Shown in pieces: positions 8,280 to 51,486 of a stretch of 64,000 nucleotides of DNA. The notes beneath the pieces are model-generated. The model saw only the letters and a list, made by a program, of their open reading frames with translations, did no database searches and was not told the DNA's origin. Position 1 is the first letter of the stretch. Each line of letters begins with the position of its first letter. The translations under genes were made by a program, and so were the position numbers. The DNA is taken from positions 24,913,739 to 24,977,738 of the forward strand of contig NC_049982.1 of NCBI RefSeq assembly GCF_000003815.2, given 5' to 3'. This stretch comes from Branchiostoma floridae. Its lineage: Eukaryota; Chordata; Leptocardii; Amphioxiformes; Branchiostomatidae.

Positions 8280-9540
8280 TTGAACGTTTCCCCGAAAGGA
8301 TGAAGAGTGCCAAAATAGCTGTTGCTTTGCGGTTGAAGCTACTCGGTACAAACGCACGTGTGCAGAATACGGTCAAACGGTATGTCGTGGCCGTGCATGT
8401 ATATGAAGAGACAGCCTTGATAATAACCGAGCGATTTGCTCCATATTCATAGTTCTGTCGTTGAAAGAAAAAGAAAAAAATCAAAGTTTTTGAAGGAAAA
8501 AGTTGTCGATCAGGTATCAGAAATTGCTTGCTTCGCATTTACTTGTATAGTATAGTTTATTGCAGATTCTTGCCCGAGGGCTAATTGCAGGTAACATGGA
8601 AGGTTACATACAGTGCAAGCAATATACAAGAGTCTATATAACTCTAACAACTCTAGATTCTGGGTTGTTGAGTAATTCATGCATATTATGCTCTTCCATT
8701 TATTCAATTTTTCATGCTTACGTATCTATACATTATAACTACAACGGTAGCATTCTCAGATTCCTAAGTTTTTTGGGAGGCCCAAAAATAACCATACTGC
8801 CATACATGGCTTCTCATGCATATTCTTATTAACCGATATTATTCCATGACATGATGTTTGCATATGATAAGCAAACAAACAAAAATCATACGTGAACAAA
8901 ATCATTTTCCGTACTGAATGAATACGAGATGTCAAATGTATAACGTCTTCTTGTTGAACCGTAGACAATAAAAACCAACAGGTCTGTACACTTTGACAGT
9001 TTACGCTATGGCAGTGGGAACTCTGTACCAAAGAAAACAACATATCTATGATATGGTCACATATGATGTGATGTTTAGAACGTGAAGTCCATAAATGAAT
9101 AAATGCAGCATTACCAGAAGGACTACAGAATCCTAGGATTTGGGGGCGAGGTATTTTATGAATGCAAAGATTCAGTAAAACGGCAAAGACAGCAAATCGA
9201 CTCATAATACTCTAATTCCTTTGGCCTGAGGTAGTCACCACATAGAGTTTATCATCGATGCTAAAAATAGCTAAATCCATGTCACCGTTACAAATCAAAT
9301 CACGCATTATAAGATCCCTTGGTGTTAACTGGAATTTATTTGAAAATTCGAACAGACCAATCGCGACCAGGTTTTGAATCTGAAATAAGAGATTCGACTG
9401 ACCATGTCACAAGTGTGTACCAGAAATAGAAACAGGGCGTATGGCAGAAATAATAAGTGATAAATATAGATGAAAGTAATATCACAAAAGCTCCCTCCAT
9501 TGCAGGCTTGTGATGAAATGTCCCTAATGAAAAGAAGACG
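8280..9540. other. Noncoding upstream flank
   Basis: I see no supported gene. The 149-codon minus-strand open frame at 8756-9205 has no recognisable domain, an odd Cys/His-rich composition and no splice or promoter context; I treat it as chance. Confidence 0.4.
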
Positions 9541-9550
9541 AGCGTAATGG

Positions 9551-9608
9551 TGACGTCACGGTGACGTCAGAGGCTCCGGCGAGGCGACCATCAATTACCA
9601 GTATTTAA
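9551..9608 (+). promoter_or_regulatory. Paired CRE promoter of the three-exon membrane protein gene
   Basis: Two perfect cAMP-response palindromes TGACGTCA occur at 9551-9558 and 9562-9569, 11 bases apart start to start, so on the same face of the helix. A TATA-like TATTTAA follows at 9602-9608, which would place transcription start near 9630. CREB/ATF factors bind such sites in animals. A second TATA-like stretch (TATAAATATAAA, about 9992-10003) sits just before the coding ATG and could serve an alternative start. Confidence 0.55.
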
Positions 9609-9794
9609 CCGCCGCTATTACCCGGCAGTGGGTGGGAGTATCCAGCGCCTCAACGCACAGCACAAAAATCAATAATCTTCTTCATGCTTGAGTAAACGTG
9701 TAGAAGAGGTAACCCCGCATTCATACATACGCGAAGGACACCGTTGAGACTTGCAGTGGACAGCGGAACGGGAGTGGAAAATCTCCGTATCACC

Positions 9795-9887
9795 ATGCCT
9801 GACATCACGAAGAGCCGCTGGAAACCTGTTGGGAAACCCTTTGGTGTAACGCCACTTGTAAACGGCGTGCTTCGCGGGAACTCATGA
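9795..9887 (+). other. Upstream ORF, 30 codons, in putative 5' leader
   Basis: ATG at 9795 in a good initiation context (CACCATGC) opens 30 codons and stops with TGA at 9885-9887. A second short ORF starts at 9884 and overlaps that stop in the ATGA arrangement. If transcription begins near 9630, these precede the main ATG at 10029 and would be expected to lower its translation. This depends on an unproven leader without an intron. Confidence 0.4.
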
Positions 9888-10028
9888 GCCGGCGATGCGA
9901 AGATTTTACCGACTAAGATTAGGCTTAGTCTTGAAGATTTAGTAATGGTACGGACAACTCGTTTTTGCAGTTTAATCTGCTTGTGATATTTTTATAAATA
10001 TAAACCGCAGTGCTCTACACAGTTGAGC

Positions 10029-13000
10029 ATGTTATTGCAATATTCCGGATCAGAATGGGTCGTTGCCACTTGGATTGTTGTCGTTTTGATGACGAACGTT
10101 ACGAGGGAAGCAAGTGGTGGTCGAATCCCTAAAAGGACTGCAAGCATCGACAGCCTTCTACAATCCCTGGATAACAAACAGGTGCAGTTTGAAGACCTGA
10201 TGAACCGGCTGGAAGAGCAGCTTAACATTGGAGTCAACAGGACGATCGCTCCAGGTAGGTTTATCAAATGAATTATAATTGCCATGTATTGAAGTCCATC
10301 AACTTGATATATTCCGAATAACTCTAGTTAAAAACGGATATACATGTAGTTTACCCTACGAATAGAAGTGAATTCGTTGAACATTTAATATTAACTAAGC
10401 AGCAGCATTGAAAGATGTTTTGATTTGGTTATTCATATAATATTTTTCTGCATACAAAAATGATAACTGTATCAGCAACTTGGACAAGCTAACAGCTATT
10501 GTATACAGAAAACGTTCGTGTAGCCTCCAGATGAATTACAGCTAGATGCAACATATCTATATCGCCAACACTTTTTCGTCATACTTGAAGTTGAGCGATG
10601 TAAAAATAAAATCTCGAGTTGATTTCAAAATTCAAAATTACCTTTGCAATGCGTTGCAATGAGTTTTCGGTTACATGTTTGTCAATCTATCCTTAGTAAC
10701 TCTTCTTTTCACTTGCCCTGGGTCAAGAATTGAAGTGATCTCTGGCAGACATTACATTGAACAGCGCCCTCGAAAAAAAACGAGCCAAAATCTAGGGCTT
10801 GTTGATGTAAAGAACTGTGTTTTATCAAGATAAGAAATACAATGTTAAAGTAAGGTGGTATCTCATTGCACTTGAGGCACCGGTGTGGTACTGCAGGGCT
10901 CGAAAGACTACTCAACGAATTTCAGAGATAAATAACAAATTCTCCTACGTTTTGTGTATTTTAGTGTCTTCTAAGTCATACTTTTACGTATTACGCAATA
11001 TCTAAATTATAAAATACCAGCAAAAATAACATAACAGCGACTCAGTAAACGAACCCTACAGTGCCCCACCGGTACCCCAAGTGCAGTGAGATACCATTTT
11101 TATCCATGCCTTTTACACCAGTATATTTGAAGTGCACATACCGCGGGAATTACTGATTCGGCATCAGTAGATGTATGTTAATACACAGTTTGTTGTTCTA
11201 ATCTTACCCAGAAGAATTGTAAATGTAACAAACGTCAACGTATGCTGGATCTCGAGATATTTGAAGAGAGAGATTTAACCTCATCTTTCTGCTTGGAGCT
11301 TATCAAGTGATCTTTTCTGGTGATTTCACCACTTCCTAAGAGCTTACGGGGTAAGATCATAGATATCAACACATCAAACGCGTCTCAACATGAGTCCTGT
11401 TTTCCTTGGGCTTTCGAAACAAGTTTGCCTATGACTTTCTAATCTTACCCAGAAGAATTGTAGGTGTAACAAACGTCAATCTAGTGATATTTTCTGGTGA
11501 TTTCGCCACTTCCTAAGGGCTTATGGGGTAAGATCATAGATATCAACACATCAAACGCGTCTCTACATGAGTCCTGTTTTCCTTGGGCTTTCGAAACAAG
11601 TTTGCCTATGACTTTCTAATCTTACGCAGAAGAATTGTAAATGTCACAAACGTCAAAGTATGTGCTGCATATATCGAGATATTTGAAGAGAGACATTTAA
11701 CGACATCTATCTGCCTGGAGCTTATCAAGTGATGTTTTTCTGGTGATTTCACCACTTCCTAAGGGCTTATGCGGTAAGATCATAGACATCACTACATCAA
11801 ACGTGTCTCTACAAGTCCTTGGGCTTTCGAAACGAGTTTGCCTGTGACTTGATCTATTTGAAAGCCATGCTCTATTTCCTTTCTTGATCGTGTCTGAGGT
11901 TAAGTAGCAAAGCTTTATGGTCCTTCCCCTGCACGGAGCTCCGTCTAATGGATTGGAGTATCTCTAGGGGAATGGTTGTCCGATGACTTTCATCTCATTG
12001 CCTGTCTAGAGTTCACTCGATCCGCATTCAAGAGGTTGAATTTCAACTGAAAAGCGTCGATAGAAGAATGAAAGCTTTGAGATACAACTTGGATATGAGC
12101 AATTGATATTCCGATACAAATTTTATCTATATTTGAGATATTTTTTCGTTGTTGTTGCTACAAAGATACTGTGCCAATTTTTCCTAGAATGTACATGCAT
12201 GCTTTTATGTAACTAAATAGTGTCGCTAAAAGGTTAAAAGCTTGAAAATACCGATTTGATATAAGCAAAAGATTGTATTTCACATACAAAATCTATACTA
12301 TATTTCCATTGTTGTTGCTGAAAAGATACTGTGCCGATGTGTTCATTAATTTACGTCTATGTTTAATTTGCTTTCATATAAATCAGCTCAGTGTTTATAT
12401 TTTGCGTCAGATTTCATTGTATGTGGAACATTTGTATGGGTGGAAAATTCATGTAGCAAAAACAACGGCAAAGTAAACAATTTGCGAACCACGTTGCTCG
12501 GCAAGACTTTCCATGTGACTCTATCCCTCAGCGCAGCCAGCAATATAAAACACCTTGTTATCAATTTTTTCTGCCTCAGGGAACCCTATAATAGATATGA
12601 ATAGCTTATTGGAAGGTCTCGGAACGAAGCAAATCAAATAAAGCGTGCTCTCTTTGCCATCTGGGTTATATTTAGCGACATGAATTGTACATAGGCCGAG
12701 ATAAGTTGTAACAAGTCATCTGATTTGTCCCCTTGATAGAATAAGCTGTAACAGGCCATTTGATTTGTGCCCTTGATACAATAAGTAACAAGCCATTTGA
12801 TTTGTCCCCTTGATAGAATAAGCTGTAACAAGCCATTTGATTTGTCCCCTTGATAGAATAAGCTGTAACAAGCCATTTGATTTGTGCCCTTGATACAATA
12901 AGTAACAAGCCATATGATTTGTCCCCTTGATAGAATGAGTTATAACAAGCCATTTGATTTGTGTCTTTGGTTGCAAAAGTTGTGAAAAGTCATGCATTGA

Positions 13001-16000
13001 CTTTGTCCCCTTGATGCAATAATTTTTACATAATTGTATCTAGTTTTGTAGCAACATATTCTGCCATTTCCCTAAAGTGAAAAGAACATGTGTCATAACA
13101 CCTTGGTTGAATCTAAAGCCACTCTGAATAATTGCTGTACTTAGTGATCATAAACAAAGTAACGGGTCATACATGTAGGTTGATATGTCCCAATGCGACA
13201 AGGAAAAAGGCAAAGAATTCTAATAATTTGTGTGGTTGTATATAACTGCCCTAGGTGCATGTATGAAGGTCCCAAGGTTCAGCTGAACCGAGCAAGCGAT
13301 ATATCGGATGAATATAACAATCTAACTGGTCTTATGTGTAGGTTGATTTATCCTAACACTTCAAGCAAGAGAAAAGGCAAGAAACTTTCATAATTTGTGT
13401 GGTTGTCTAACAGATTGTATTTTCACGCTCCTTCAAGGTATATGTATTCAGAGCTTCACTGATATGAACAAGTGATGAATAGGGCGAATATCAAGAATCC
13501 AACAGGTCTTACATATACATAGTTTGATATATCCCAACACTTTAAGCAAGGAAAAGGCAAGAACCTTTCATAATTTGCGTGGTTGTCTACCTGTCCCAAG
13601 TTAGAAAGCTGGACTGAACAAGTGATGAATTGGGTGAATATCAACAACCCAACATGTAGGTTGATATATATATCCCAACACGCCAAGGGAAAGGCGAAAA
13701 GAATTCATAACTTTGTGGCTGTCTAACAGATCCAGCTGGCATATATTTCACTGCCAATTTGCGTACATGTATTCAAAGCTACACTGTACAAATGGTGTAT
13801 TGGGTGAAGACCCAAACATGCCTTACATGTGTAGGTAAATATATCCCAATACGTCAATGAAAAAGGCGAGAAACTTTCGTAACTTTGTAGCTGTCTTTAT
13901 TTCACTGGTACATACATTCAAAGCTGCACCTAACAAGTGATGTATTGGGTGAAGACCCAACAGGTCTTACATGCATAGGTAAATGTATTCCAACACGTCA
14001 GTGGACAAGATGAGTGAATTCTATTACTACTTAAGCTCCTGTCAAGACGCCCTCCGGCTGAGTTACCTCAACAGTCCGCCTACTCAAATGCAAATACAGA
14101 TACTGACAGAGACTACCAAGTTACATAAAAGCATAGTACAGAATTTTTTTTCGTATAGAGCATTTTCTTTCACTTTCGATATTACCGAAGCGGGCAGGTG
14201 CCGACAGCCATATTGGTGTCCTTAGTTTGAATTTCGAATTTCAAAGGACCGCAGCTCCATTTAAACCTTGTCCTGATGGGCCTATAGATGTTCAAGTTGC
14301 ACTTCCACGCTGCAACCTCCTTGCAAGGTGCCTTTATGTGGGTCCCGTATTTCTATGGGTTTATTGGGAAATTTCTCTCCTAAATATGGAATACCACAGC
14401 AAAGCACACCGAATGCGGAAGTAAATCTGAAGCAGCAACACAGACAATGTCAAGTGTAACTTATCTGATGATGCAATCAGCTTAGGGAGGTTAAATGAGC
14501 AAAACAATACCAGCAGGACAAGGCGTAATTTCATAGGAATGTTAACTTTTTTAAAATGTACTTTTCTGACATTTTCATCCGTGAGGTGAGTTATAAACTC
14601 CTAATAGAGGTTATTTGAGAGTGTCAGAAGATCACTTTGAATGTAAGAAACCGTTTTACGAGGTACGATTTACGGAGATACAAATATGTGCGTTCGCCGC
14701 AAAGCTGCTGTTCGCATAATGTCACGTGGAAAAGGTGAATAAACCATTCCATCTTCATTTGAATTTAGCACCCGTTAAACCGATATTTCACTCTAACAAT
14801 CTATCAAAACACTTTTAGCCAGGTCGATTAAATCTAATGCATATTATAGCTTCCGAGCAAAGCCGTGTGTGTCGAAACTGCCCACAAGGAAACTAATTTG
14901 TTTTTATTTTCTTGCGGTAATATTTCAGGATGTCCCTTGTAGCCGCCATAAAATGAAGGCTCCTAATGGTAAAGGCGCCCCACAACTTTATGGTAATAGT
15001 TTTTAACGGTTGAACCTTGGCCTCATTTGGCCACAGCAAGTAACTTTTATGGATGACATCAGCGCGCTCATTAATTTTCTCCTGATTTCAGGGGGAAAAA
15101 AGAATTTTTTTTCTTCGTGGATGCTCAACATGATGAGAAAGTACTGTGAGAAGGTGCCAAAATAGGCAAATAGAAAGCCTTATAATTGTCGTTGTAAAAA
15201 TGACACTCGACGAGGTAGTACAATCCATGAGTGTAGTTGCCTACTTGGTAAGTGATACCAGTCTACTTTTAGACTGTGTCATATATAGTGTCACTTTTGC
15301 TACACTAGTCAATTTCTTGAATGCAGGAATGAATGCCTTGTTAGCTGTGTGGCACATTTTGTCACTCTTATTCTTCTTACAACGTCTATGGGGTCTATTT
15401 TAAACATTTAATTTAGCCATCTTGTTTTTGTTTTTTACCCATCTCGTTTTTTTCGCGTTATCTCATTATTTTGCAGCCCGCAGAGGATGTCATCCATAAA
15501 ATTTACTTGCTGTGGCCTTACTTTCTAGCAGCTTCGATATATATGCTCAATGTGCGAAATCCTCTAATAACCTCTTTCCATGGTTGAATGCAAGGTTTTC
15601 TGAGGCTTACGTTTGCTTGGGGAAGGTTGTGTTAGAACTGAAAGATATCTAACATTCTTTTTTACACCTGGCGCCGCATTCCTCTTGGGCAGCATCTTCA
15701 CAATTGTTACAGCCAGTTAGACATGACGAATTGATACTTAAGGTGCTTCTAGAGACGTCACTTTGTATTAAGACTGCCTTCCACACTTTAAAGGCTGCAA
15801 CCACTGTGCGACCAAACACTTGACAGGTAGCTCATCGTATTTTAATACCGTGAAAAGACGCACATTTGTATTGCTTCAAGGTTAGGGAAGTTGGAGAAAA
15901 ACTTAGGAAAATGCAATATCAAATGTCATAAGTACCTACTGATATACAAGTGTCATCTTTATTCTCACAATTATTCTTGTTCATTTATGGTTGGGTGTAT

Positions 16001-19000
16001 GAAACTTTCTTTGTCAAAATGAAGCTTACGTTTTCCCAAAATGAATTATTCCATACTTTGTTAGTTAGGGAAATAAAATAATAAAAATGAAAGAAAAGAA
16101 AAGAAAGTAAAAAAATTAATGTCACGATATACGACTTTGATCATTCAAATCACACGTTTACATCGTGTTTTGTGTTCAGATCATAAAGCAATGGTAACAC
16201 AAACTTTACCCAGTTGTAGTTAGTTACTCAGTGGTTGGTCACCACATTATTCTAGTAAACTACATGATCGCTGAGTCTTTTCGCCTGCATTACTTTGACA
16301 TACAGACACAAGCGTGCCTATTTTACAATGATGCAACCCGACAGAAAACCACACGTGTGAGTTGCTGATAAAGCTACGGTTGAACCTACACATTTATCTC
16401 ACAAATACCCGCTGAATATTTTTTGCTTCCTGTCGAGACGTATTTCGCGCTTGGTCGTCTTTCATGTGTCAATCGATGGTCATAAGTTTACAAAATAACC
16501 ATCATGACAAATAGATAATGTTGGCCAGGATCCTGAATATGTTCAAAAGTGCCTATGGTGTTTCGTCGTGTCATAAATGTTTTGGATGGATGGGTGGGTG
16601 TTTGAGCCTTGACCAAAGTGTGCTAGTCTATTGGTACAAACAGAGATCGCTATTATGATACTTGTTGTTAGCATCTCCCTGTATATACGATAGCTTTTTT
16701 TATCTGAAGGACAGTCTATAACGCCATTTGTAGTATTTCAGCCGGGTACTCTACGGCTTAGGCACCAGATGGAAAAAGGGGCCTTGTCGGGTAGTTTAGT
16801 TGGGCTGTTTTTGTTTTTTTTTTCACTTTCGGGCGTTACCCCTTCGGGCGTAACCCCTACGTGACCCCGTGGGACACCTTGCGGCGCCGGGATATTTTTT
16901 TTGACCCGGCTGGTAGGCACTGGGTTGAACTTAAGAAGGACTTAAAATGAACCCGGGACCCGGTAACAAATAGACCGGCCATAGCCTACCCGTGGGGATC
17001 ACCGAGAGACGTATCACGGTATCCGCCAGTCCACCGGGACAAATCTGTGACTTCGGAACCCAGCCGGGGCTACATCCCTGACAGGCACCGGTGCAATCGG
17101 AACCCGGCCAATAGATACCTTAGCCTATGGCGGCCACAATTTTAAAAAGTGTATATCCAGGCCTTCTAAAGCTAAGGATGTCTGAAAAACCTCAATATAT
17201 GGGAAGTGTGCATACCTCCGGAATTCCTGATTCTGCATTTTAGTAGATCTCTTTATAGTCACAATTTTGTTTTTTATCCTGCTTGTCCTTTCCTTTGTTT
17301 CGAGTAGAGCACCCGTCAGAAGTATGAAAGTCATCGTTATGTGAAGTGGTGTTCGCTTTTGGACTGTGTACATAAACATCGATCAAGTAATTGGCGCTCA
17401 GACGTGTACATATTACGAAGAGGATCACGTCCAACACGTAGACAGAAGAACTACCGTTTCCCTAACGTACCATAATTGATGGTACGGATCATTACGGATT
17501 TAAAAGAAGCAATTTAAAAGCTTCTTCCACCGCCTGCAGGTTAAGTTATGTCACTCTGACTTTTTGAAAATAAATATTCGGCCTTGTGGCGAAACGTTGA
17601 CATTGAAAGAGGAACGTTTTGCAATAAATCGCCAAAGTCATTTATGCATGTATATCTAGGTGACTGGCGACAGATATGGCTTAAAGCGCTTATGACGTCT
17701 TTGCTGCGGGATAAGATGTAAAATGCGATAGATCAAAACGAGAAGCTTCTAGATCTCTTACTGCATACATATCTAAAAGGGGTACATAGGACACAATATC
17801 TGTGGAGGAACTACGGTGTGAATTAATATGTTTGGTACCCTCTCAACCAGGAATACGAAATTCTTTAAAATATATATTTTATATATTCATCTTCTTCAAG
17901 TAATTGTTCAGTATAACACTAGGGGAAAAGCAAGAGGTGGTCTAACCACTGATTTCCAATTGAGAATTGCTAATCAGCTCGATCCTGAGAGGCAACCATT
18001 GGATGTACCACACTACTTTACAATTCTGCATCACATGGAAATTAATCAACTGCCAATTATTCGCCATGCATTTGCTTTTATGCTTTTACATCAACAGTCA
18101 CAAACTTGCCAAGTTTCAAACAAATTCTTGTAAAGGATCTTGAGTTATAAATGAAAAAAACGCTGGGAGTCATTAACCTCCTCGATAAGCTAATAATCTA
18201 TCTTATTTGTTGCTTTGCGGAGCTTCTGAATCATTGCAATGCATTGGAGAGACCAAAATTGTACCATCACTCACTTGTGCATAAAAACAGTGTAAGGTCC
18301 TTATCTCTGTGAAACTGACGACAGATTTAATGTAAGCCTCTTGGAACCCCGCTTACGTCGACTTTGCTGTAAGATCTAACGTATGATACGAGCGATGAAT
18401 AAAAGTTTTTGATAAGCCAGTGATTAGTTTCCTCGGGTTGGTAAGCTACTGGATTATTTTGTACACAACCAAGTGCTTTATTCCACCGCCGTACAAGCAA
18501 AACGTACTTAAATCGGTGCCATCATTCTCTTTACTAGTCTTTACTGGTGAAGGGCGCCGGTCTCTATACAGTCTAGTCTACGGAGAACAGTTGTCCTGGA
18601 CACGATGCATATCTTCTTGCGTGTCTTCCTTTGCCCTCTCCAAACTGCGGAATATGTAATCCTACCCAATTTTGACGATTTCTCCTGGTACGGCCCTCTG
18701 GTGGTAGTATGTTAAACTTCGTGTTAGTACATGACACCACACTAGTCATGAGTGATTTTCGTCTAGCAACAAGGCCTACCCTTGACGAATGATAGTGATC
18801 ATCAATGATCTCAATGACAAATTTCTGTTCACTCATCGATTGGCCAATATATCTATAAAAAACGATTAACAATTTAACCATATCCATCCTCTATATTGTA
18901 TCCACGAATGACTTAGTCAAGTTTTCGGTACTTTTATCTTTTATTTTTGTTTTCTTGCTGCAGCAGACCACGCGATGCGGCCCCGTTCCACCAGACACGA

Positions 19001-21188
19001 CATCCGGGTCCTCCTGAACAGCCTGGCGGAGAAACAGGATCAGTTTGAGGATCTTCTGTGGAAACTTGAGCTGCTGTTGGGTAGGGCGTTTTTTTTTAAA
19101 CAGTTTTAGGTAATTTGTCTTATAATAAAACAAGGTCTGCATTTATCTTCACAAAATGTCAATTATCGTCATTTCATGATAAAAACGGCTTCATATAACT
19201 CTCATAATTCCACCGGAGGCCAGAATACTGCCACATGAGTCACATACATGGATTTAAAGAGATGTACCAATACGGCATCATCTGAGATATAAATGTGTAT
19301 ACACTTCAGATATTAAGATGTTGAAGACAACCCTTTTTAGAAATATATATGGCACCCGGTAGAACTATGAAAGTTGAATTATGAGACATTCGCAAGAACT
19401 CGTGTCTTGAACATTTACTAATATAGATATCTGAGGTATGGATAACTTCAATATTACTGTTGGATTTCGAGCTCTTTATTTTTTTCGTTTGAGTGTAATT
19501 TTCCAGTGTTTGAACTTTGGACAGAGTCACGAAATTGACGTTATCTACCGTCTTAATGCTCATATGCCTACCAGACACATTTCAGCATTAAGATCGGATT
19601 AACTTGCCTCCTATCACTTAGCCCTAAAGGTATCATCCTTCATGCACATTCAACTAGGAGTTTACAGAACTATATATGACATATTTATCTAGAATATATA
19701 GATTATGAATCACTCAATACTGTAGCTATCTAGATTAATGTGAAAGCTGAAAGTATTACAAGTACTCAGTCATCAATCAAATGCTATATACGTTACACAG
19801 TACTCTTCGCGAACGAAGATCATCTATAGGGTCATACTAACTTCTGATAGCTGATGAGTCCGATGCGTAAACACAGTACCAGTGAGGCAAATAATCGCGC
19901 AAGTTCTGGTAAGTAGCATAACTAACCATTGGACAATATAAAAAAAGGCAACATGCAGGGATTTTATTCAGCATTGCATAAAGCATCACTATAAAGTGCA
20001 AAGTGTAACCAAAACAAAATCGATGTTGAGTTGCCCCCAACAGCTCAACAAGTTTGTCCTTACCGTATAAATGTACCTCCTGCTACGATAGACCGTTAGA
20101 CCACATAAATGCAACCCGGGCGAGGGGATCAAATCTGCCCCCTTTCGATGGCAGGTTATATCCATCCATGGATAATCGGATTCATCCCTGGAGAAACGGA
20201 TCAAGCCTGGCTTGAAATTTGCCACAGAGGATGCAAGCCGCGGGGTGTTGCATAACACGTATGTCCTTTGTGATGAAATACTGAAAATAATTTGATTTTC
20301 AACTTGGGATGTTGCGGAACGATTGCAGTAATATGTGTGTAGTTCCAATTATTGAAGACGACACTGGTAAAGCCACAAGACTTTGCAGTGATGACGCACT
20401 TTACATAATTATGTAATATCTAAGGGAACAATATCGTCAATAAGCTGTTTTTGCAATGTTGATCCTGGAAGAAGAGGATCCTGTTCGGAAGAATTCATTT
20501 TAAATGTGAGGAAGAAAACCGCATTCACGCTAGAGAAAAAATAGTCTCGAGATAAAGACACTGTCATACGTTTTTCAAGGTTGGCAGGGGGAAGTTTAAA
20601 CATAAACAGAAGAAAATTTGATAAAGCTGCCATTAACTTTACGTGGAATACTAAGTCAGTGTGTCTTTTAACGTCTTTTTGAACAATGAAATGAAAGTTC
20701 ATCTGTGTTGGTAGAAGTCGTTCTTGAACTAATTAAACTGTAATATCCAACACAAAAAATTTACTCACTCACTTTTTCGACTGAACAGCATCAGTCATTT
20801 TCAAGGAATGAACAATCCACTGCTGTCGTGACGTCACGTTATGCAGATATAACACGTGACTCAGTGAGCAGTGGATCGTAGGTTGCAGGAATTCGAAGTC
20901 TATGGCATGACTTCTAGATATTCTTACATGTACTTACATAACTTCTTGTCCTTTTTTTCAGATTCTGACGAGATACAAGACATGTCGCAAAACGTGACAT
21001 CGTCATTTCTCAACGACACTTCCGGTCTTATGCCCGGGAATTTAACGGAAGCGGAAGTGAGGTCAACCGGCGAGCACGACGCCGTGACAAAGACAATGGT
21101 TACCATGGTGATCTTCATCAGTCTGATCGTCTACGCCATGATTATCAAAGGGATCCTTTTCTGCAAGGAACTACAGAAACACTGGTGA
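10029..21188 (+). CDS. Unrecognised single-pass membrane protein with duplicated QFEDL helix
   Basis: Three exons join in frame: 10029-10254, 18967-19080 and 20962-21188, giving 188 residues. All sites are GT/AG and both introns are phase 1. Residues about 9-22 are a hydrophobic signal segment. Residues 39-65 and 87-113 are two copies of an amphipathic helix with the pattern LLxSLxxKQxQFEDL, offset by exactly 48 residues. Exon 3 gives a glycosylation-rich linker (N-x-T/S at 124, 131 and 140; also 23 and 70), a membrane helix at about 159-180 and a very short tail ending KHW. Predicted topology is extracellular N-terminus, cytosolic C-terminus. Exon 2 is symmetric and looks like a duplication of the end of exon 1. 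Its acceptor is a tandem CAGCAG, so one residue may be optional. Single-helix channel subunits (KCNE-like) have similar layout but no clear sequence match; I do not assign a family. Extra exons in the 8.7-kb intron cannot be excluded. Confidence 0.7.
10856..11098. repeat. MITE, copy 1 (ATGGTATCTCACTGCACTTG ends)
   Basis: Ends read GGTATCTCATTGCACTTG and, inverted, CAAGTGCAGTGAGATACC. A second copy with the same interior (a segment around CAACGAATTTC and GTCTTCTAAGTCATACTTT) lies at 21437-21672. It lies in intron 1 of the membrane protein gene. Confidence 0.8.
11196..11850. repeat. Tandem repeat, three ~240-bp units
   Basis: Units start near 11198, 11438 and 11613, each beginning with CTAATCTTAC followed by CAGAAGAATTGTA. 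The second unit lacks about 65 bases of the middle. Units share the block from the AGTGATnTTTTCTGGTGATT region to the GGGCTTTCGAAAC region. This is satellite-like DNA inside intron 1. Confidence 0.85.
12703..13020. repeat. Minisatellite, eight units of 37-44 bp
   Basis: The unit is of the form AAGCTGTAACAAGCCATTTG followed by ATTTGTCCCCTTGATAGAAT. A 37-base variant alternates with 40-base units in a higher-order 40-40-37 pattern. All three minus-strand frames stay open across it, giving spurious repeated peptides. Confidence 0.9.
13160..13990. repeat. Degenerate tandem repeat, about 150-170 bp units
   Basis: A motif of the form TACATGTAGGTTGATATATC, then CCAACAC, then a GAAAAGGCAAGAA-like block and a TTTCATAA segment, recurs near 13170, 13335, 13510, 13660, 13825 and 13970. 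It ends about where non-repeat intron DNA resumes. Confidence 0.75.
14930..15650. repeat. Large foldback element
   Basis: CCACAGCAAGTAACTTTTAT near 15040 is inverted near 15490-15520, and further blocks outside pair less well (CTAATAGAGGTTATTTG near 14600 with its complement near 15565). The centre is about 15270. The 85-codon open frame in the loop is not supported as a gene. Confidence 0.6.
15651..18963. other. Remaining intron 1 sequence
   Basis: No exon is supported. The 101-codon open frame at 17828-18133 has no flanking splice signals in phase with the gene and no family. A GC-rich patch at about 16735-17130 with repeated ACCCCTTCGGGCG motifs is probably a decayed repeat. Confidence 0.4.
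20829..20836. promoter_or_regulatory. CRE palindrome in intron 2
   Basis: A perfect TGACGTCA lies 133 bases before exon 3, next to an E-box CACGTG at about 20853. It might mark an internal promoter, but it may be chance. Confidence 0.3.
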
Positions 21189-23688
21189 CAGAGAATGTGT
21201 AAATTCTTTAAATGAAACATTTTTGAGAGGGCAATACGACATTTCAATATAATCGAAGCAAAGTTGGATTGTAACGTTATATTGTCGATGTAGGTTCGGC
21301 ATGTATAGGTAATTTGATACGCAATTAACGTAACAAATAATCAAGCTACTGGATAAAATCTGGAAACGCTTAAACGCTTCCATTGCTTTTGTCAGTAACT
21401 AAAGGAGAACCTGGAGTTCCCAAAATGTTGCCCAAAGGTCATCTCACTGCACTGGGGGCACCTGTGTGGCACTACGTGGATCGAAAGATTACACAACGAA
21501 TTTCGGAGATAAGGAAAAATTACGTTTTGTGTATTTTGTTGTCTTCTAAGTCATACTTTTACGTACGTAATATCTAAGTTTTAAAAAAAATCGACGAAAA
21601 TAGCACAACAGTGCCGCAGTGAACGAACCCCGCAGCGCCGCAGCGTTGCCCCAAGTGCAATTAGATATCGTCTTAGGTGTCAAAATTTCCAATACTTGGG
21701 ATTCTGCCTTACCATCCTGCGAGGCGACATAAGCTCTAAGCTTGGAACAGGCCACAACCTTGTCTTGGCTTTGTCTTCTATTGTGCCATCTTAGAATTGT
21801 CTTCAAATGATTAACATATTAATTCAGATTTTGGATTTAAAATAGCCCCAGGTAAGCCTCGTTCAGTCATGATCGCTGACGAAAGACAGTGGATGCTGCC
21901 TCAAACGTCTCGCCGTTTCCAAATACTATCCAGTTTCTTGATTGAATAAACATCATGTTGCAGCGTTGTTGTTTTTTCAAGCAGATATTTGGATGGAATA
22001 CTATTTATAGTGTTCACCGACAAGACAAAGTGGTGTAAAATTTTCTATGTATCTATCCCGATCTTCATGTATACATGCTTTTCATTTGACGTCATCTGCG
22101 CCATGTTGGATTACAGTGTACGTCTGTAAACCACACGAAGATGCTACTGCTTAATTTAATTACCCGTCATCATGGCCGTCAGATGATTCAAATCATAATT
22201 AGTATGACGTCAAAGAAAAGCCTGTATTGCGCTACTTTTTTCATTGTATACCTATAGCGAGTCATCGCAATGTACGACTCATCAAAAGTTATCATAATCA
22301 TGTAAGATTTGTAAACATGTCGTGCTAGACAACGTTTTGCAACAGTATGTTGATATCTTAAGGTGCTAATCTGTCTCGTGGCTAATTATGAAATTACATA
22401 AATTTTTGTGGAACGTTACATTCATCATGATCATAACCGCACGGAATGTAACTGTCCGGAAGTAAACGTGCATGTATATTCTGTATGTATGCAAGATGCG
22501 AGGGCAAGCATTCCTGCACTTTGTACTGATGAGTGATCCTCCTTAATGTATGTTGTAGATGGTAGAAGTAAATGTTAGTGTCGCTCTGCTACAGACTATT
22601 GCCACATTCAGATTTGTACAGTATATTCACACTGATAGAAAGTTTTGATATTGTTGTACAAGCATGTTCACCTTTTGAACAAGGTTTTCTTTCGTCCCAT
22701 AGCATTATGTTCTTTAGTTCAGCAAACGTTTCGACAACCATCTGTCCTCGTCAGCAGTGAATAATGAAACAATCAATTATTATCATATTCAGAAGAATTA
22801 AAGAATGCTGTAGAACATAAAAACTAATTTCAATTGATCTACCAACCTGATGAAATTTTAAAGATTAATTGTTGGGCGGAAAATGAAGCCTATAAGTACC
22901 TGCGTTTAGTCTTTTATGCTCGATTTCAAACGTTTTTAGATAACATTGTATGTAAACAGAAGAATTGTATAGTAAACAATCAATTGTATGTTAACAATCA
23001 ACTGTACATAATCCAAGTGAATGTCGTTGTTGCAATTTGTAACCCTGTATTTTAACAATGAATTACAATTTCATTTCTCCAAAATAAAAAAAAAGAATCA
23101 ACAACATGGTTTTCAGTTAAATGCAATGTATCCGATGTGCAATGCTGCCTGGATACCTAAGGACATGATGTCGCAGTAGTCTAGCATTGGCGTCCACTGT
23201 CTTGGTAATTTCACTATAATTATAATCTGCTGAGCATCAGTAGACGATAGGGTGGACAAGGAATTGCACGCCCCTCCTTCACCTCAAAAGTCATGTGCAT
23301 GCCAGCAAACAGGTTCCCAAACTCACGTCGGCAAGTGTCTGTTTGCAGACACCATTGTCTCTCGAGACAGAAGGATGCAAACAACATGGATATCAAAGCT
23401 ATACCACTCCCATGCAATAAGTGAACAACTTCTAACCGAGCAAAGCCTGGGGAAAATGCAGTAATGGTGCCATTTTCAGTCATAGCAATCCATTATGCTC
23501 AACCTTTCAAATGTGTGAGGAGGCGACTGTACTAAGAATGTCTCCCCAGGGCAGTGGATTAATATCTAGTGTGACTGTCAGGGTCAAGGGTTTACACCTA
23601 GTTAAATTACTTGTCTTTGGAGCCTGAATAATAAATGGCGATTAACGTTGAACGCAGCCTGTCAACATTGATGCCAACTTGCCAATGG
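21189..23688. other. 3' flank of the membrane protein gene
   Basis: No coding exon is seen. Candidate polyadenylation signals AATAAA occur near 21944 (inside a repeat with GACGAAAGACAGTGGATGCT near 21880) and near 23083 just before an A-run. Neither is decisive. Confidence 0.4.
21437..21672. repeat. MITE, copy 2
   Basis: Second copy of the element at 10856-11098, in the same orientation. Left end CATCTCACTGCACT, right end complement near 21650-21672. It lies about 250 bases past the stop codon of the membrane protein gene, so it may form part of its 3' UTR. Confidence 0.75.
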
Positions 23689-35756: not shown

Positions 35757-38700
35757 ATGGTAAGTTTGCCTGTGTTTTCTCGTATATTCTGCAATTTTGA
35801 GGGTAAACACATGTTTTTGGAACGTAAGATAGGTGTTGGATCATCAGTGTCGACACAATAACTCCACAGAGGGTGTAGTTTTGCGAAAAATCGGCTATCA
35901 CCTGCTCTGGTTTCTAAGATGACGATTTTCGTGATGCCATGCTTCTATCTTTTTAGAGATTCGCGGCGCCGGTTTTTGCTAGACAGATTGTGATTATCTG
36001 AGCTTCAAAATTACAAGATTATGTTCCGAAATGACATGGAGAAACCCATCCTGTCTTGCTCCGTTTTGTATTTCATCTAATAACATTTCTGTAATTGTTA
36101 AGGGTTACAAAAAACTCTTCTAGTTACTGCCACCTGTTCCAAAACCTTAAGAATTCTACATTTTTCTGCCAATCTGCCAGGTCTGATTTCAGTTTATGTA
36201 TCTACTAGTAACTGACAATCTTATAGTTTGTTTATTCTAGAAGATGGTAAACCTATAGTCTGTGTGACGACTTATTACCATCACGGTGTAACTGTAGGTT
36301 AAGTTACAGTGTAACTCTTAGCACATTGTAATCATATTTATAGATATGACATTTTGATTTATATGATTCATATTATCATGTCACTTGAACATTTGTATTG
36401 TATGACCCATCTCCAAGCAGATGTTGAGAATATTGTAAGATGTTTTGCTTGCCCCAAAAAACAAGTACAAATTTTCACCCTAACATCTGCTTGGAGATGG
36501 TTCCTAAAACACAGAAATATGCTTGGACTTTACTGTAAATCAATTAATTTTCCTAGTAGTAAAAGGGGAAATTAGGTTTCACAATGTTTAAATTGTGCAG
36601 CTGAAATAATTCTTTAAATTAAAGTATAAATACACTGAACTGAAACGCAGTGTGTATTTAAGGCAGTCACCACAAAAATACAAAAATGAAACCATCACGA
36701 ACATTTCAAGGTCTACAGTACAGTGTGAATATCTTTGAAACACATAAAACGCACATTGATCGCCCCAACACTACTTGTACTAGTCTAGTATTCTCTGGAG
36801 ATGCATGTGTTGATGTCTATTTGTTAGGTTGCAATCAGAAAAAAACCTGTTTGACAGGATTTGCAGGAATTAGGATTTGCTGTTGATCTTGTTGTTTTTG
36901 CAGTAACCATGGTTACTGATTGTTGCACTGTGTAATTTTCATCCACTGTTGGTGCTCGTTAACCCTATTCAGACCGGGCTTTTTTGGTCATCCCTGGACC
37001 GGGGGGGGGCTTTTGAGGCCCTCCACTTCTAGGTCCTATAACTCTTGAACGACGTGCCGTAGGGCCACCAAATTTTTTGGACGTGATGTCGACATAATAT
37101 CTGACAAGTATATGACGTTTGACGTTACGTTGACGTAAGATGACGTAATTATGACGTCATCAATTTGATTATATTGGCCGAACCCATGAAAAAAGGGTAT
37201 TCTCAGAAAACTTCAAGTTATGCTACAAAAATGAAACAACAAGTGCAGATAACAGAATAATAATGTTAAGTACGACTTGCGTTGGCAATAGCAACATCAA
37301 TGACGTCAAAATGACGTCATAAAATGACGTCATGCACATCTAAGATACGAGTTGGGCTCCGCCATATTATATCCACCACCTTGAATTTTTAAAAATACTT
37401 TTTTTGCAACAAATAATCACAAAGGGCAATGGAAATAGACTAAATTCATTCATTTAGATGGTATTTGATGAAAAAATACCAGGTAGTTACAAATTTTAAG
37501 GGATAATTAGCTTGTTATTCTTGATCTGGCCATACGGTCCGCCATCTTGGATTTTGGGCTGATGACGTCATCAAATTAGCATAATTTATGCATATATAAT
37601 TATGAAAGATATGCTAAATAATACAAGATTTTATTTATGTAACAAAATAGCAGTAATATACCAAATAAATGTGAAAAATACATTGCTAGAGCCAAAAATA
37701 GTGATTTTTGGCAAAACTGCCTGTCAACAAACGGTTGCCATGGCAACACGAAAAAATGGAAAATTTGTCATACTTCGCAAAATTGTTGTCAACAATATTT
37801 TAGGAAAACTCACCAAATTTGGTGGCTCTAGCGTAAGCCGTTCTGGCGTTATAGGACATCGAAGTTGGCGCGGGCCTCAAAAGCCCCCCCCCGGTCTGAA
37901 TAGGGTTAAATTCCCCATGACATCATCCTAAAGTGTTATTCCTAAAGACTTCTAATGCCTTTCCATTGTATTCCTTACATTACCAATGGTACAGAATTGT
38001 TTCAATGTAGACAAACTGAAAACGCTGTAAAAACACAGGAATCCTTTTCAGTCCTCTAACATCCCTACAAAAAGTAATGAATTCTTGACAATTTTGCATT
38101 TAATTTAGTTTTATGTTCGTGGTTTTCTTGAACGCTTCACCTCGTAATTAAAATTGGCATTTACATTACTGTATGGCTAGTGTACGGTATGTAATGACAG
38201 TGGAATAATGCACCTAAAACCACCTCAATCACTCCATTTTCTCTTTACCGTGAATTGAATTCACAGCAACTGTAAAAGGCATCTACAGTACCTCGACACT
38301 TGTTAACCAATGTGCCATTGTTTGTATTTGTACTCGTTTTTAGACTAAGTCAACAAGATTAAAAGGATTTGTCACCTTATTTGCATGTAAATCAGTGTTA
38401 TACTGGTTGTCATCACATGATCACTACATGGATGTTCTTGTTCCCAGGGTCTTCTAGCCCTTCTGCGTAAGCTGAAGAGCAATCCTGAGAAGGAACTGAA
38501 AATTCTCCTCCTGGGACTTGACAACGCTGGCAAGACAACTCTACTTAAGCACTTAGCGTCAGAAGATATCTCGCATATCACTCCCACACAGGTACGTATA
38601 TATGGGCGTATACATGTATGTGTGTACAATATAAGGGGTTGAAATACTGCTCTCTTGCGTATGCTTACCAGTTGCAGGTAGCATTCCAAAATATCTATAA

Positions 38701-45663: not shown

Positions 45664-48600
45664 TCATGGTTTCTTAGCGTTTGCTCCAAAAGATTTCATC
45701 ATATACCCAACATTGTTACTTGTGTTTTTGGCAGCACCTCCGGGGCGGGGCCTTGCTTTTTTTTTGCCAGTCGAACGTGGACCAATATTGCGTGAGCACT
45801 GCATGTGGACCTTGATGACGCCATCTAGGTGCATTTGCCGTATTGAGAAGAACTCCAGTGGCATGTTGTGAGCGTTCTTAACAAAGACCGGCGCCTTGTA
45901 GTAATGGTAAAACACTTTCCTGCCTTTGTCGTCACGTGAAAAGGGCCAAAAACCGTAAACGTGGACTTCATCGCACAGGGTCAGTGCCATGCTGATGATG
46001 TAGATACCTGGATAACATGATGCAACAAGAATAAGTCGATGAAGGTTAGATAGACGCCAAATAGCAATTACTCAAGTAACTGGTCAAACTTTTCAGGCAA
46101 CATACTTCCAATACACTTGCCTTACTTAAGCCTAAATGGAGAAATGCGCCATTCTAGATTAACTACTTTAAGGCACACTGTACTCCAGAGGAGAGTGCTA
46201 TTTCCTAAAAGACCACATTTTTAGGTACACAAAATTGACAAAATTTGTAAAAATTAATCACAGATGAGCAAATAAATGGACCATTTATAATCCGGTAACT
46301 GAATATATGCAGACCCATAAGGTGTGATGCATGATGGGAATAATGCCTTAACTATTAGTTCCTATGGGATAATTGCTAAAGTTCCAGGTCAATTTTTGGG
46401 TCAAATTAATAAAAGAATTAACTTGATAAGGATGGAAAATGATGAACAACTATTCAGACACATGCTGCAAACATTGCATCACTACTTCATCGACATCCGA
46501 TTGTTGAACATCATCACTTAATAGCTACCTGATGTAATCTTTCTGGGAATTCCACGGTTTCTCCAGTAGTTGTCAATGCACATGAAGTGATGTGGATGCT
46601 CATATACTCCACTCAACTTGCCTTTCATGGCACCTTCGATAGCGCTGATCATGTAGTTGGTATAATCTGTTGATTGGGCAACAGACAATATGATAAAAAT
46701 GATAATTGCATGTTTCATTAGATTCCTAGACTTATAAAAGGCAACAGTACACTTCCGGACAAACACTTTGATTCCGGAAAACCTCAATAATTTCAAAATA
46801 GATTGACCAGATAAATTGATATCTGTAGGTTTGATATATCAAAGGATAGCGAATATGAAGGTTGCAATTAGATGTCTCTACAAAGAAAGGCTGCAGAATT
46901 CCAAAATTCTGTTTCAGGGTCCCAGAAATCTGGCAGAATTCTGGCTCGGATTCCCAAAATTCTGGCAGAATCCGCAAAATTCTGCATAATTGGCCTTCTT
47001 CGTGGAGACATCTACATGTAATTTCAACCTATGTATTCACCACCCTTTGATATATCATACCTACAAATATTAATTCATCTGGTTAATCTATTTTGAAATA
47101 AATTAAGGTTTTCCAGAATTAAAGTGTTCGTCCGGAATTATACTGTCGCCTGTTTTATATGTTTTCTAGATGTAACAATAAGCATCAAACAAGCTAATGA
47201 CACTAAGAATTTCAGCCGCCCTTCTTGCATCAATTAACCAATAAGGTCGAATTTGTGACCTCCTTGTCTAATTACCGTATTCCATGATTGGTTGCTGTCG
47301 GTTTCTCACATACCACCATATAAGGGTGTCTGTCAGCTCTATAGCTGAGGAATTTAAGTCCCCATANNNNNNNNNNNNNNNNNNNNNNNNNNNNNNNNNN
47401 NNNNNNNNNNNNNNNNNNNNNNNNNNNNNNNNNNNNNNNNNNNNNNNNNNNNNNNNNNNNNNNNNNTGTTGGGTTTCTTTAGTGACAGGATTCCTCGGTA
47501 CGACGCCATGTCTTTCAGAAACTTCTCTCTCACAGAATTGTCCTTCATTTGCATGTACCTGTAAAGTACATGTGCAACAATCGGCGACCAATACATGTTG
47601 TCAACCTTCAACGTTTTGATACACAGCTTGGTAAAGGTGGGGTCACACATGCTTATATATTTATGTCCGTTTGAGGTGCGTATGAAGCTCTTTGTAGCTA
47701 CCTGCTGGCCCCACAGGCCGGGGGAAAATAGTACAAATATAGATACATAACATGCCAGATGATTTAGCTATCGAGAAGTATGGTTACCGACCCAGCTAAC
47801 TCGTCTGACATGTTACCTGTTTACGGTTGTCCAATTTCTATTATTTTTCCAACGACCTGTGGGGCCTGGTGGAGGCAAATACTCCCATGCGCGCCTCATA
47901 TGGCCTTAAATATATACGCATGCAAGTGTGAACCCACCTTTACCAAGCTGTGTATCAAAATTATGATATAGATTTACACCAAGCTTTTATCAATGAGAAC
48001 GGAAGGAAGGTCATCAAACTTAAGGGTTTGAGTAATATCTGGCGGCTACATGTGGAGTCTCTTAATGATAAACAGAAAGTGTTGACTAATTGTACTAGCT
48101 GATCATGAGCGACGGTTACTTAGTATCAAAAAACGAACAAAATATATCCTCAGTTTACAAGGTAAGATTTTCAGGTAATTGAGCTGTTACATTGAGGTAA
48201 ACTTCACATTCATTATATTCTATGCTTGTTCATGTACACATTTCACTATGTGTACACAGATCACAATATCGATATCATATTACACCATACAATACAATAT
48301 CAATATCAGACGGTATTGTATATGGTGGACTGTACCACTTACAATTTCAGCATGGATATGGGGGCCGTGGTGTAGGTCGATTTTACCCCAGCATCGTTCT
48401 TGTAGATCTGTTTCTGCAGTGGTGGCAAGTTGCACCTGACGCAAAAAGATTAATGAACTAGTGATTTAAATATTGACAACCTTATACCTTTATGACATTT
48501 ATTCTATGCAAATGACTTATATATTTGCATAATTTATGCATGGTATTTTTTACTTTCAACTAAGACATACCACAAGTTGCCATCATTTACCATAAATTTG

Positions 48601-51486
48601 TAATTTTTGTATCAAATACATGTAAATTAGTTCCTTGTTTGCATAAAAATGGTTCAGATAGGTAGGCCGCTCTAAAATCACCTGAACACGGCGTCAGCAC
48701 TGTCGATGGATGTTCCACACCGGCTTCCGCGCAATATACCACTGTTTCCCACTACCGCACACTTCTGGTAATGTTTATTCCTAAAGGGAGACTCCTGTGG
48801 GGGAAAAGTCACAAATGAATCCTTCCTTTTTCTTGAAAGTCGCCTGTTCAAGGATATATAGTGGGTCATCGAATCTCGAGAACACCGAAGAAATGGCTAA
48901 GCGTCATACTCTGGGTTGACATTTGCATACGATCCATACATGTTTATCCGAGTTCTCTACTAAATGTATTGTATTGAATTGTTTCTACCAGTTCCTTCTA
49001 GTGACGCTGAAGAAGAGTATGAGAGGAATGGATATCACTCGAAACGTTCAGAAGCAAATCTCCGTTTTTATCCAGTTGTGGAGATTGAATTTGAATTCGT
49101 ACTCAAAGACTTCTTTACAAGACAATGGTAATGCAAGGAATCAAATAGATTTGAACAGTTGCTTGAATTGAGTGATTTGTATTCAGTTGCTGGTGAACTG
49201 AGCTGAGTTGGTTGACTATATATATATATATATATAACTGTGATCTCGCGTATGTTGCAATTGGTGATTTATTGTGATTAATCTATTCGTATCAATTACA
49301 TCAATTAAAAACAAACCAATGTACAGAAAAGAAAAATATATAGGGAGAGAGCAGAAGCCTACAAGGATTTTTGTGAGCACCACAGCTCAGAAACTAAATA
49401 GTATCAAAAAGTCTCAAAGTCTCAAAACTAAAAAGTCACAAAGTCTCAAAGTATGAAATGTTTACTTAATATAATCAAATTGAACAAAATTTGATAAGAA
49501 AAAATATACAATAAAATCATAACATGATTGAGGTACTTTGATGAAACAAGAGTTATATTACAAGTAATACTAGTAAAAAAAATACAATTCATAATTTACA
49601 AATATAAAGAAGTTAAATGAATTTTGTTTGAAATTGAGAAGAAGAAAAAGAATAAAGTCAAAGAATAAAATTGTGAATGACAATGTAAGATTACAATTTT
49701 GCTATCATATCATAATAATGGTTAACTCGTATACCACGTACCTTTGGTAAGACTCTGTAGATGTCCCTGGTTATTTTCAGAGGAAGTTTGCGGTTGAGAA
49801 CGTTCGGTAGCTGGTCTCCAACTTTGACGTTCCTCTTTGTCATGACGGACGACTCCACATCACAACACCCTGCCAACTCATCCCTATTGACGGAAACAAA
49901 ACAAGACATGTCCAAATATCAATTAATCAAGCTACTGAATATGACTTTTGAAACTGTGAGACATTTCTGACAATATTCGTGATCTTTCTTTATTTCGTCA
50001 TTTAACGCCCATAACCACCGCGACAAATCGCTAGATCCTGGAACTAAAAAAAACAGGAGCTAATTAACTCATTTGCATCAAGTTACTATCAACTTGGCTT
50101 TCCGTTGGTTCCTCTTTGCATATCAATTATTAGTTAGGAGATCTTTAACAAGATCTCTTCAGTGTCACTGACGAAAGATAGCGAGTGTTATCTAAAACGT
50201 CTGACCGTTTCTAAAATCATATCCAGTTGCTTGAGTAACAGCTATTCAGCGTTTGTTATTACCTGGGTATTTAAACTTCATCGATGTAAAACTTAATGTC
50301 TTCGTGGCAACAAAGACTATGTATGTTTAAGAAATTGATCAAGTGATGCGCAAAAGGGACACATTGTCTACTACATGTACTCACCTTATCTGCTTAGAAA
50401 GCTCCTTATTTTCCTTCCATGTCCCCTTAAAGGCACGCATGACTTCAACGAGATCTTTAGACCTGTTGATCCGTACTACAGTCGAACCTGCAGCTGTTCC
50501 GACAATGCCAAGCTTCCGGGGTCGCAGTTTAACTGAACAGTTATTTTCTGGCGAGTCATCTTGATGGAGATCTCTGCCTGTTCGATCATGAGCCGTGGTT
50601 TCTCTATATGACCCATCCTCTGAAGTGTTGTAAAGGTGTTCCTTAGATATTGTGTGAACGGGGCGAATAATCTCTGCCTCCGTGTCTTCTAAAGTCTTTT
50701 CTTTTTTGAAAACTCCTGGGAGAATCGCCCCAAGGTCTGCTACGTGACAATCGCCTCCGGTATTCCCCTCTAGGCTTCTTTCCACACTGGGTCGTGAAAT
50801 ATAAAGAAAACCAAACGATGGTAAAGAGCTAAGCTGGATCAAAAACAACACAGAAATGTTCATAGAATTTTCGACTGTCTGTTTTGCGACCTGCATCAGT
50901 TACGAATGACCAATTCCTTAACCACGTGACCTTACAGACATGCACATAACGTCAGTATTTGGTCATAAATTTAGACTGCCTGTTGAGTGATGACATGTGT
51001 GTGCTTATGTAGGTAATATAACACCAACATCGACGGGCGGCGATATCAACTTTCTGGCAATAAGCTAACTCACAGTTCCGAGTGCGCATGTGCTGAGATA
51101 TAGATAATTGTGGTCCAGCTGCAGGTCATAGTTCAAGATCCATTCGTTGATCAATCAATTTCTTCAGAAGTCTGTGCGACGTTTTTGTCACAAAAGATCT
51201 TCTGGCGTGCTTAAAAGCAGTCTGGACAAGTCTGAATTTATCAGCGAAGGGATCATGGACATTGAACTAAGGCCACAATGTATCAGGACTGTAAATTGGA
51301 ATTTGAAACAACTGTAAAATGGTCTTATTTTGACCAAATGTAGACATAAAGTAGTGTTACATACCGACTGTTGGGAGAATCTGAGACGTCAATCAGCCAA
51401 ACGGGTTTTCGTCCAACCAGCATGATGGTACCAGTGCAGGCTACCAAAAGCAAGCTGACTGCAACGTTGTATATTCGAAACCGCAT
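45664..51486 (-). CDS. Alpha-2,8-sialyltransferase-like protein A (ST8Sia family)
   Basis: Eight coding exons, minus strand: 51486-51365, 50786-50385, 49883-49742, 48794-48682, 48435-48343, 47558-47467, 46666-46529 and 46007-45664; 481 residues. ST8Sia enzymes are type II Golgi proteins that add sialic acid from CMP-sialate in alpha-2,8 linkage to sialylated glycans. Seen here: a hydrophobic anchor at about 5-24, a long low-complexity stem (about 41-175), sialylmotif L starting [20 protein letters not shown] at 234, motif S from about 343 to 390 ending [12 protein letters not shown], motif III HYY at 402-404 and motif VS H414-x4-E419. The Asn-Pro-Ser usual in motif L is replaced by Ala-Pro-Ile-Ser. 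The C-terminus extends about 45 residues beyond the usual end and is rich in Lys/Arg/Pro/Gly. The exon at 47467 ends exactly at the assembly gap, so its donor is hidden; the tandem paralogue supports that end. Substrate cannot be predicted. Confidence 0.93.
46745..47153. repeat. Nested ~410-bp palindromic foldback element
   Basis: Outer arms (about 46745-46860 and 47010-47153) are inverted, from GCAACAGTACACTTCCGG to its complement, with patches such as TTTGATATATCAAAGG. The centre is a second inverted repeat, GATGTCTCTACAAAGAA against TTCTTCGTGGAGACATC (46873 and 46997), enclosing several AGAATTCTGGC-type units. It lies in an intron of sialyltransferase A. Confidence 0.8.
47367..47466. other. 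Assembly gap (100 N)
   Basis: Exactly 100 N, a common convention for a gap of unknown size. It starts at the 3' edge of a sialyltransferase A exon and hides that donor site and an unknown amount of intron. Confidence 0.99.
47606..47965. repeat. Inverted repeat next to an exon
   Basis: TTTTGATACACAGCTTGGTA then AAGGTGGG at 47612 is inverted at about 47929-47962. A second pair of blocks (CTGGCCCCACAGG against CCTGTGGGGCC) lies inside. The left arm starts about 50 bases before the acceptor of the exon at 47558. Confidence 0.75.
49217..49236. repeat. TA microsatellite
   Basis: About ten TA units in an intron of sialyltransferase A. Confidence 0.8.
50165..50270. repeat. Interspersed repeat, TGACGAAAGATAGCGAGTG type
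   Basis: A block running CACTGACGAAAGATAGCGAG, ACGTCTGACCGTTTCTAAAA, ATCCAGTTGCTTGAGTAAC. Diverged copies occur near 7737-7780 and 21876-21960. I recall this block as common in amphioxus sequence, but cannot check here. Confidence 0.55.
51060..51315. repeat. Inverted-repeat element, relative of 43915-44085
   Basis: AGTGCGCATGTGCTGAG near 51078, GTGGTCCAGCTGCAGGTCAT near 51111 and GGCCACAATGTATCAGGA near 51271 match blocks of the element at 43915-44085. It is in intron 1 of sialyltransferase A. Confidence 0.5.

Follow-up and report, generated by a model that had tools for sequence, protein, structure and literature searches.

A three-exon gene for a membrane protein, very likely a real coding gene, was identified on the plus strand of the window (the whole stretch of 64,000 nucleotides analysed, C4:24913739-24977738), and two further loci in the genome carry relatives of its last exon. 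We are highly confident that the three loci form a paralog set and that this set is defined by the membrane helix and the tail that follows it. An earlier reading made from the letters alone (the sequence-only reading) had put the weight on the duplicated QFEDL helices of exons 1 and 2; on the sequences compared here, the weight shifts to exon 3 with the membrane helix and the tail, which is what the relatives share, and away from the helices.

Joining 10029-10254, 18967-19080 and 20962-21188 gave a frame of 188 residues with no internal stop. The coding part of exon 1 (10029-10254, plus strand) is an open frame that ends in phase 1 at the donor CAG/GTAGGT and encodes a signal segment (approximately residues 1-30), a dibasic KR at residues 35-36, helix copy 1 and the sequons N23 and N70; an in-frame stop lies at 9984, 45 bases upstream of its ATG. 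Over 9001-22000 it was the sole candidate that passed a set of first-exon rules (an ATG, at least 45 codons, a hydrophobic N-terminus, a phase-1 donor and GC3 above GC2), which were set after exon 1 was known. Intron 1 (10255-18966, plus strand) spans 8.7 kb and is followed by exon 2 (18967-19080, plus strand), which is 114 bp long and symmetric (1-1), carries helix copy 2 and ends at the donor TGG/GTAGGG; the frame would be preserved if it were skipped. A tandem CAGCAG acceptor is read in the sequence at 18961-18966 (plus strand), and use of its first AG would give exon 2 one extra residue (Ala). Exon 3 (20962-21188, plus strand) encodes a stalk with the sequons N124, N131 and N140, the membrane helix and a short tail, and stops with TGA at 21186-21188. 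The two acceptors read TTGCTGCAGCAG/AC and TTTTTTTCAG/AT. The 3' ends of exons 1 and 2 are both in phase 1, the acceptor phase of exon 3 fits either of them, and the proposal that the two helices lie on separate exons with phase-1 ends was borne out by the 188-residue splice reading.

The GC content at codon positions 1/2/3 was 0.52/0.37/0.53 in exon 1, 0.68/0.30/0.76 in exon 2 and 0.44/0.35/0.65 in exon 3, and the GC content of the introns was 0.39 and 0.37. When compared with 232 other stretches, each at least 60 codons long and free of stops, from which known coding places had been left out, the difference between GC3 and GC2 was equalled or exceeded in 3.9% of the stretches for exon 1 and in 0% for exon 2 and for exon 3. 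The GC3 of exon 1 was reached by 9.5% of the 232 stretches, and the GC evidence for this exon alone is modest. The GC3 of exon 2 was reached by none of them (0/232), an extreme that weighs less because exon 2, with its 37 codons, is shorter than the stretches it was compared with.

The two helix copies, at residues 43-65 (10155-10223, plus strand, LLQSLDNKQVQFEDLMNRLEEQL) and residues 91-113 (19011-19079, plus strand, LLNSLAEKQDQFEDLLWKLELLL), are identical at 14 of 23 positions without a gap and at an offset of 48, and among the 23-residue pairs with an offset of 24 or more they have the top score. This repeat had already been noticed in the sequence-only reading and it held: 14 identities were reached in none of 2000 shuffles of the whole protein (maximum 11) and in none of 100,000 permutations of copy 2 (maximum 11). 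At the DNA level the copies are alike at 40 of 69 bases (58%), the mismatches over the 23 codons being distributed 8/7/14 by codon position (a contrast that is weaker over 29 codons, 12/12/17), and different codons are used for 9 of the 14 identical residues. Together, the low DNA likeness, third-position mismatches and differing codons are typical of old duplicates maintained at the protein level. Exon 2 had been taken for a duplicated symmetric exon. This description is too simple because the first coding exon, in which copy 1 lies, is asymmetric; either just the 3' portion of exon 1 was duplicated or exon 1 has lost an intron that preceded copy 1.

A helix was predicted at residues 36-70 (block pLDDT 68-81 for residues 41-70, single-sequence model of exon 1 alone). 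The heptad pattern of copy 1 was equalled in 101 of 20,000 shuffles, and that of copy 2 was not significant alone (2215 of 20,000 shuffles as good). The genome searched comprised 513,431,437 bases in 431 contigs, and no further QFEDL helices were found elsewhere in it by the protein, 41-residue helix and pattern searches. Of these, the 41-residue query was insensitive, finding copy 1 and missing copy 2; the back-translated KQxQFEDL pattern AARCARNNNCARTTYGARGAYYT, which is blind to any copy without those letters, gave better evidence, with two exact matches in the genome, one per helix exon, and none for the reversed control. The suggestion that the long first intron could host more copies found no support: a six-frame profile scan detected no third copy in intron 1 or in the window (the two known copies scored 84.5 and 83.5, and the best other 23-mer 23.5).

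The peak hydrophobicity of the 188-residue protein was found at residues 163-181 (mean 2.55), the membrane helix core being residues 160-181 (21099-21164, plus strand, VTMVIFISLIVYAMIIKGILFC), and the membrane segment was modelled as a long helix (block pLDDT 89-96, single-sequence model of exon 3 alone). The protein has a single cysteine, residue 181, which sits at the membrane border, and the tail behind it has 7 residues, not the 10 given earlier. All five N-glycosylation sites that had been counted are present as sequons (N23, N70, N124, N131 and N140), but the mature protein is likely to have at most four because N23 is located within or next to the signal segment.

With the 188-residue protein as the query, the genome search returned six places, namely the three exons, two paralog loci and one match at E 4.9 (C164) that was set aside as chance. 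L010 (C4:14.687 Mb) matched with 39% identity over residues 114-185 (E 2.1e-4) and L008 (C4:24.827 Mb) with 46% over residues 148-187 (E 9.7e-4), in both cases in the membrane exon only. When L010 was used as the query, exon 3 was found at 3.3e-5 and L008 at 0.008, and when L008 was used, exon 3 was found at 4.5e-5 and L010 at 0.006; each of these reverse searches gave exactly three membrane-exon loci, all on one contig, and as such searches score the best candidates only, further relatives may exist. Weak tblastn matches on L009 and L010 were, seen in context, not exon-like.

A three-way alignment had 12 invariant columns, including the N and T of sequon N124, which is the only sequon aligned in both paralogs. 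The membrane residues that are invariant in all three (3/3) are a V, the motif Y-A..I...LFC and an L three positions after the Cys, and the core Y-A..I...LFC..L has K or Q at one internal position. All three proteins end exactly 7 residues past the membrane Cys, with the tails KELQKHW, RELRHFN and KQLRKYH. Relative to the window exon, dN/dS was 0.49/2.13 for L010 (about 0.23, 36 codons) and 0.43/2.89 for L008 (about 0.15, 22 codons), ratios that are rough given that dS is near saturation; between L010 and L008 dN was 0.40 and the dS estimate returned -1. Given the existence of the paralogs, the equal C-terminal ends and the low dN/dS, exon 3 is very probably a real coding C-terminus, and the membrane core is its conserved part.

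About 14 kb upstream of each paralog was scanned for a helix exon and no match above background was detected, the best place at L008 being the N-terminus of its own frame (16.0 vs 15.0 for the next place, not significant). Under the first-exon rules, no candidate for a signal exon was obtained in the approximately 14 kb upstream of L008 and none that was convincing upstream of L010, where the two candidates (66 and 63 codons) overlapped and were of low complexity. In L008 a possible phase-1 acceptor is found 46 bases downstream of the ATG, at the position corresponding to the start of exon 3, and a more distant upstream exon is therefore possible. In L010 the most pyrimidine-rich acceptor is located 51 bases before the ATG, in the would-be leader. 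Since the paralogs seemingly are without exons 1 and 2, the joining of these exons to exon 3 rests on the splice sites, the phase and the coding signature. The common core of the set looks like the membrane segment, and the duplicated helices resemble an add-on.

This pattern raises the question of whether exon 3 alone, read as 68 residues from Met121 and preceded directly by a promoter or a non-coding exon, is the main coding part, with exons 1 and 2 belonging to a separate or minor product. Both paralogs were read as single open frames (75 and 77 residues) beginning with an ATG that precedes a sequon by five codons, and the internal ATG of Met121 (20982-20984, plus strand) has a G at -3 and lies 3 residues before the conserved N124, so that a short form of paralog size can be hypothesised. 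Between about 105 and 133 bp upstream of exon 3 are also found TGACGTCA (20829), CACGTG (20853) and TGACTCA (20857). However, the palindrome TGACGTCA has 15 sites in the window vs 0.88 expected from shuffles (e.g. 9551, 9562, 20829 and 37301-37332) and therefore marks no promoter, near the exons or elsewhere; its sites are spread through the window. Exon 3 has a good acceptor whose phase fits exons 1 and 2, and the coding signature of exon 2 is strong; with these points against it we consider that exon 3 as the main coding part is unlikely.

No match above threshold was obtained in Pfam, NCBIfam or PDB for the protein or for the relatives searched, in agreement with the earlier statement that no family is recognised. 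In Pfam the 188-residue protein gave FIN1 (0.0077), Nsp1_C (0.14) and HEPN (0.21), and the L008 paralog gave DUF4492 (0.013), Use1 (0.049) and Peptidase_M56 (0.06), all below the cut-off, and there were no Pfam matches for the L010 paralog or exon 3. The NCBIfam match mycoplas_twoTM (0.027) was below the cut-off as well, and the PDB match was to TFIID subunit 4 (E 1.4). A profile of the three members compared with solved structures gave AhpD (1.1) and a viral fusion glycoprotein (3.1). Among the literature titles listed as matches, in a coverage that mostly excludes subscription journals, none dealt with such a protein. The gene looks like a real lineage-specific gene that fits no family searched.

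Our preferred reading, put forward tentatively and at slightly less than even confidence, is a one-pass membrane protein with a signal, two helices of about three heptads each, a sequon stalk, a membrane helix and a 7-residue tail, acting by a mechanism of the accessory type. That its role is that of an accessory membrane subunit is a more doubtful proposition, though still a plausible one. The earlier view of a small membrane protein of the cell-surface type is supported and the term small subunit is compatible with the results, whereas nothing was found in support of an adhesion peptide. In the accessory-type mechanism the conserved membrane core would probably pack against a larger membrane partner, e.g. 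a channel or a receptor, and the duplicated helices might pair, either as a hairpin or across subunits, and could in this way set stoichiometry or hold a partner on the outside. In the short paralogs approximately 45 residues precede the membrane helix, and this helix could be enough for insertion, whereas the long member, with approximately 130 residues in front of its membrane helix after signal removal, would need the signal of exon 1. If exon 2 were skipped, the frame would be kept and one helix would be left.

We take the short form to be the core of the family and the signal and the duplicated helix to be an addition in the window member; the opposite history, a loss of signal and helices in both relatives, is possible. 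A more elaborate version, which we regard as speculative and rather improbable, is an unrecognised lancelet family of accessory subunits, marked by the Y-A..I...LFC core and the 7-residue tail, in which one gene would make both a short exon 3 form of KCNE size and a long form with a signal and a duplicated helical ectodomain, and would vary the number of helices in the long form (one or two) through exon 2 skipping. Small one-pass proteins that tune channels or receptors change rapidly in evolution and are missed by family searches, and a set of three members, one of which has a signal and a duplicated helix, would show a minimal membrane regulator gaining an outer domain. Should the role be wrong, the family nevertheless stays well marked and has no model in the searched libraries, in what seems to be an important chordate outgroup; restriction to lancelets would make it an ordinary lineage-specific gene family.

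The arrangement of helices on separate exons also invites comparison with precursors of the PACAP/glucagon type, in which there is one helical peptide per exon. A membrane-anchored precursor of helical peptides, cut at a KR before copy 1 and releasing one or both helices as ligands, would agree with the KR at 35-36 directly before copy 1, with the two similar helices on separate exons and with the helix predicted over 36-70. Yet before copy 2 there is no second dibasic site (RPR and TRHD only), the spliced product has no amidation site, and the GR obtained on reading into intron 1 is the product of any phase-1 G/GTAGG donor. Models for class B1 peptide hormones (PTH, CRF, glucagon) are contained in Pfam, and none of these families was matched by the 188-residue protein at E up to 10. 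Unlike such precursors the protein has a membrane anchor, and it is the membrane part, not the helices, that the relatives keep. We regard this explanation as improbable.

A diverged KCNE (MinK-type) potassium-channel subunit would agree with the small size class, the N-terminal sequons outside a single predicted membrane helix and the apparently single coding exon of the paralogs, a layout that is also that of KCNE genes. KCNE proteins have a basic juxtamembrane motif and a longer cytosolic tail, whereas the tail here has 7 residues without that motif, and the window member has in addition a signal segment and a duplicated helix. The KCNE profile PF02060 was absent at E up to 10 for the 188-residue protein, exon 3 and both paralogs, and no KCNE was found when the three-member profile was compared with solved structures at E up to 10. 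None of the three PF02060 matches in the genome reached the cut-off (best E 1.27) or lay at any of the three family loci, in a search whose sole control-genome match was to one prokaryote, below the cut-off, and which had no animal positive control. Taken together, a KCNE subunit is very unlikely. Two of the genome matches, L015 (C4) and L017 (C270), are near-identical stretches with 90-codon frames and weak KCNE-profile scores (E 1.27 and 2.25), and are probably duplicates of a single stretch in which no convincing gene was seen.

RAMPs have a signal, a helical ectodomain and a short tail, and the single membrane helix and the short tail are predicted here as well. Four conserved cysteines are described for vertebrate RAMPs and lancelet RAMP-like proteins, and a predicted transmembrane domain for the latter, in one report (PMC6283891). 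In contrast to these four, the ectodomain of the window protein has no cysteine and its sole one is residue 181.

Finally, random or decayed frames, with exon 3 as a pseudogene or the repeat as a product of chance, would be in line with the finding of no homologue outside this genome, but with a repeat above all 2000 shuffles, synonymous differences between the copies, paralog dN/dS well below 1 and equal C-terminal ends this is a highly improbable explanation.

Intron 1 contains two tandem arrays (11302-11656 and 12701-12962), with units of 177 bp (2 copies) and approximately 40 bp (6.7 copies), and a dispersed MITE-like repeat (10856-11096) with inverted arms of 47 nt that are 85% complementary and 147 nt apart; a relative of this repeat lies just 3' of the gene (21434-21565). 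Elsewhere in the window, 10 of 45 open frames of at least 90 residues were scanned against Pfam and four, each on the minus strand, exceeded the cut-off. Two similar GT29 sialyltransferase pieces (45667-45990 and 54931-55293, minus strand), which we take to be ST8Sia-like, are apparently paralogous neighbours. The frames 50384-50896 and 58090-58377 share by eye a similar C-terminal stretch, EVM.AF.G.W..N..L, and may be upstream exons of the GT29 pieces. At 62056-63519 (minus strand) a Neuralized domain and a C3HC4 RING piece were found, apparently from a Neuralized-type gene.
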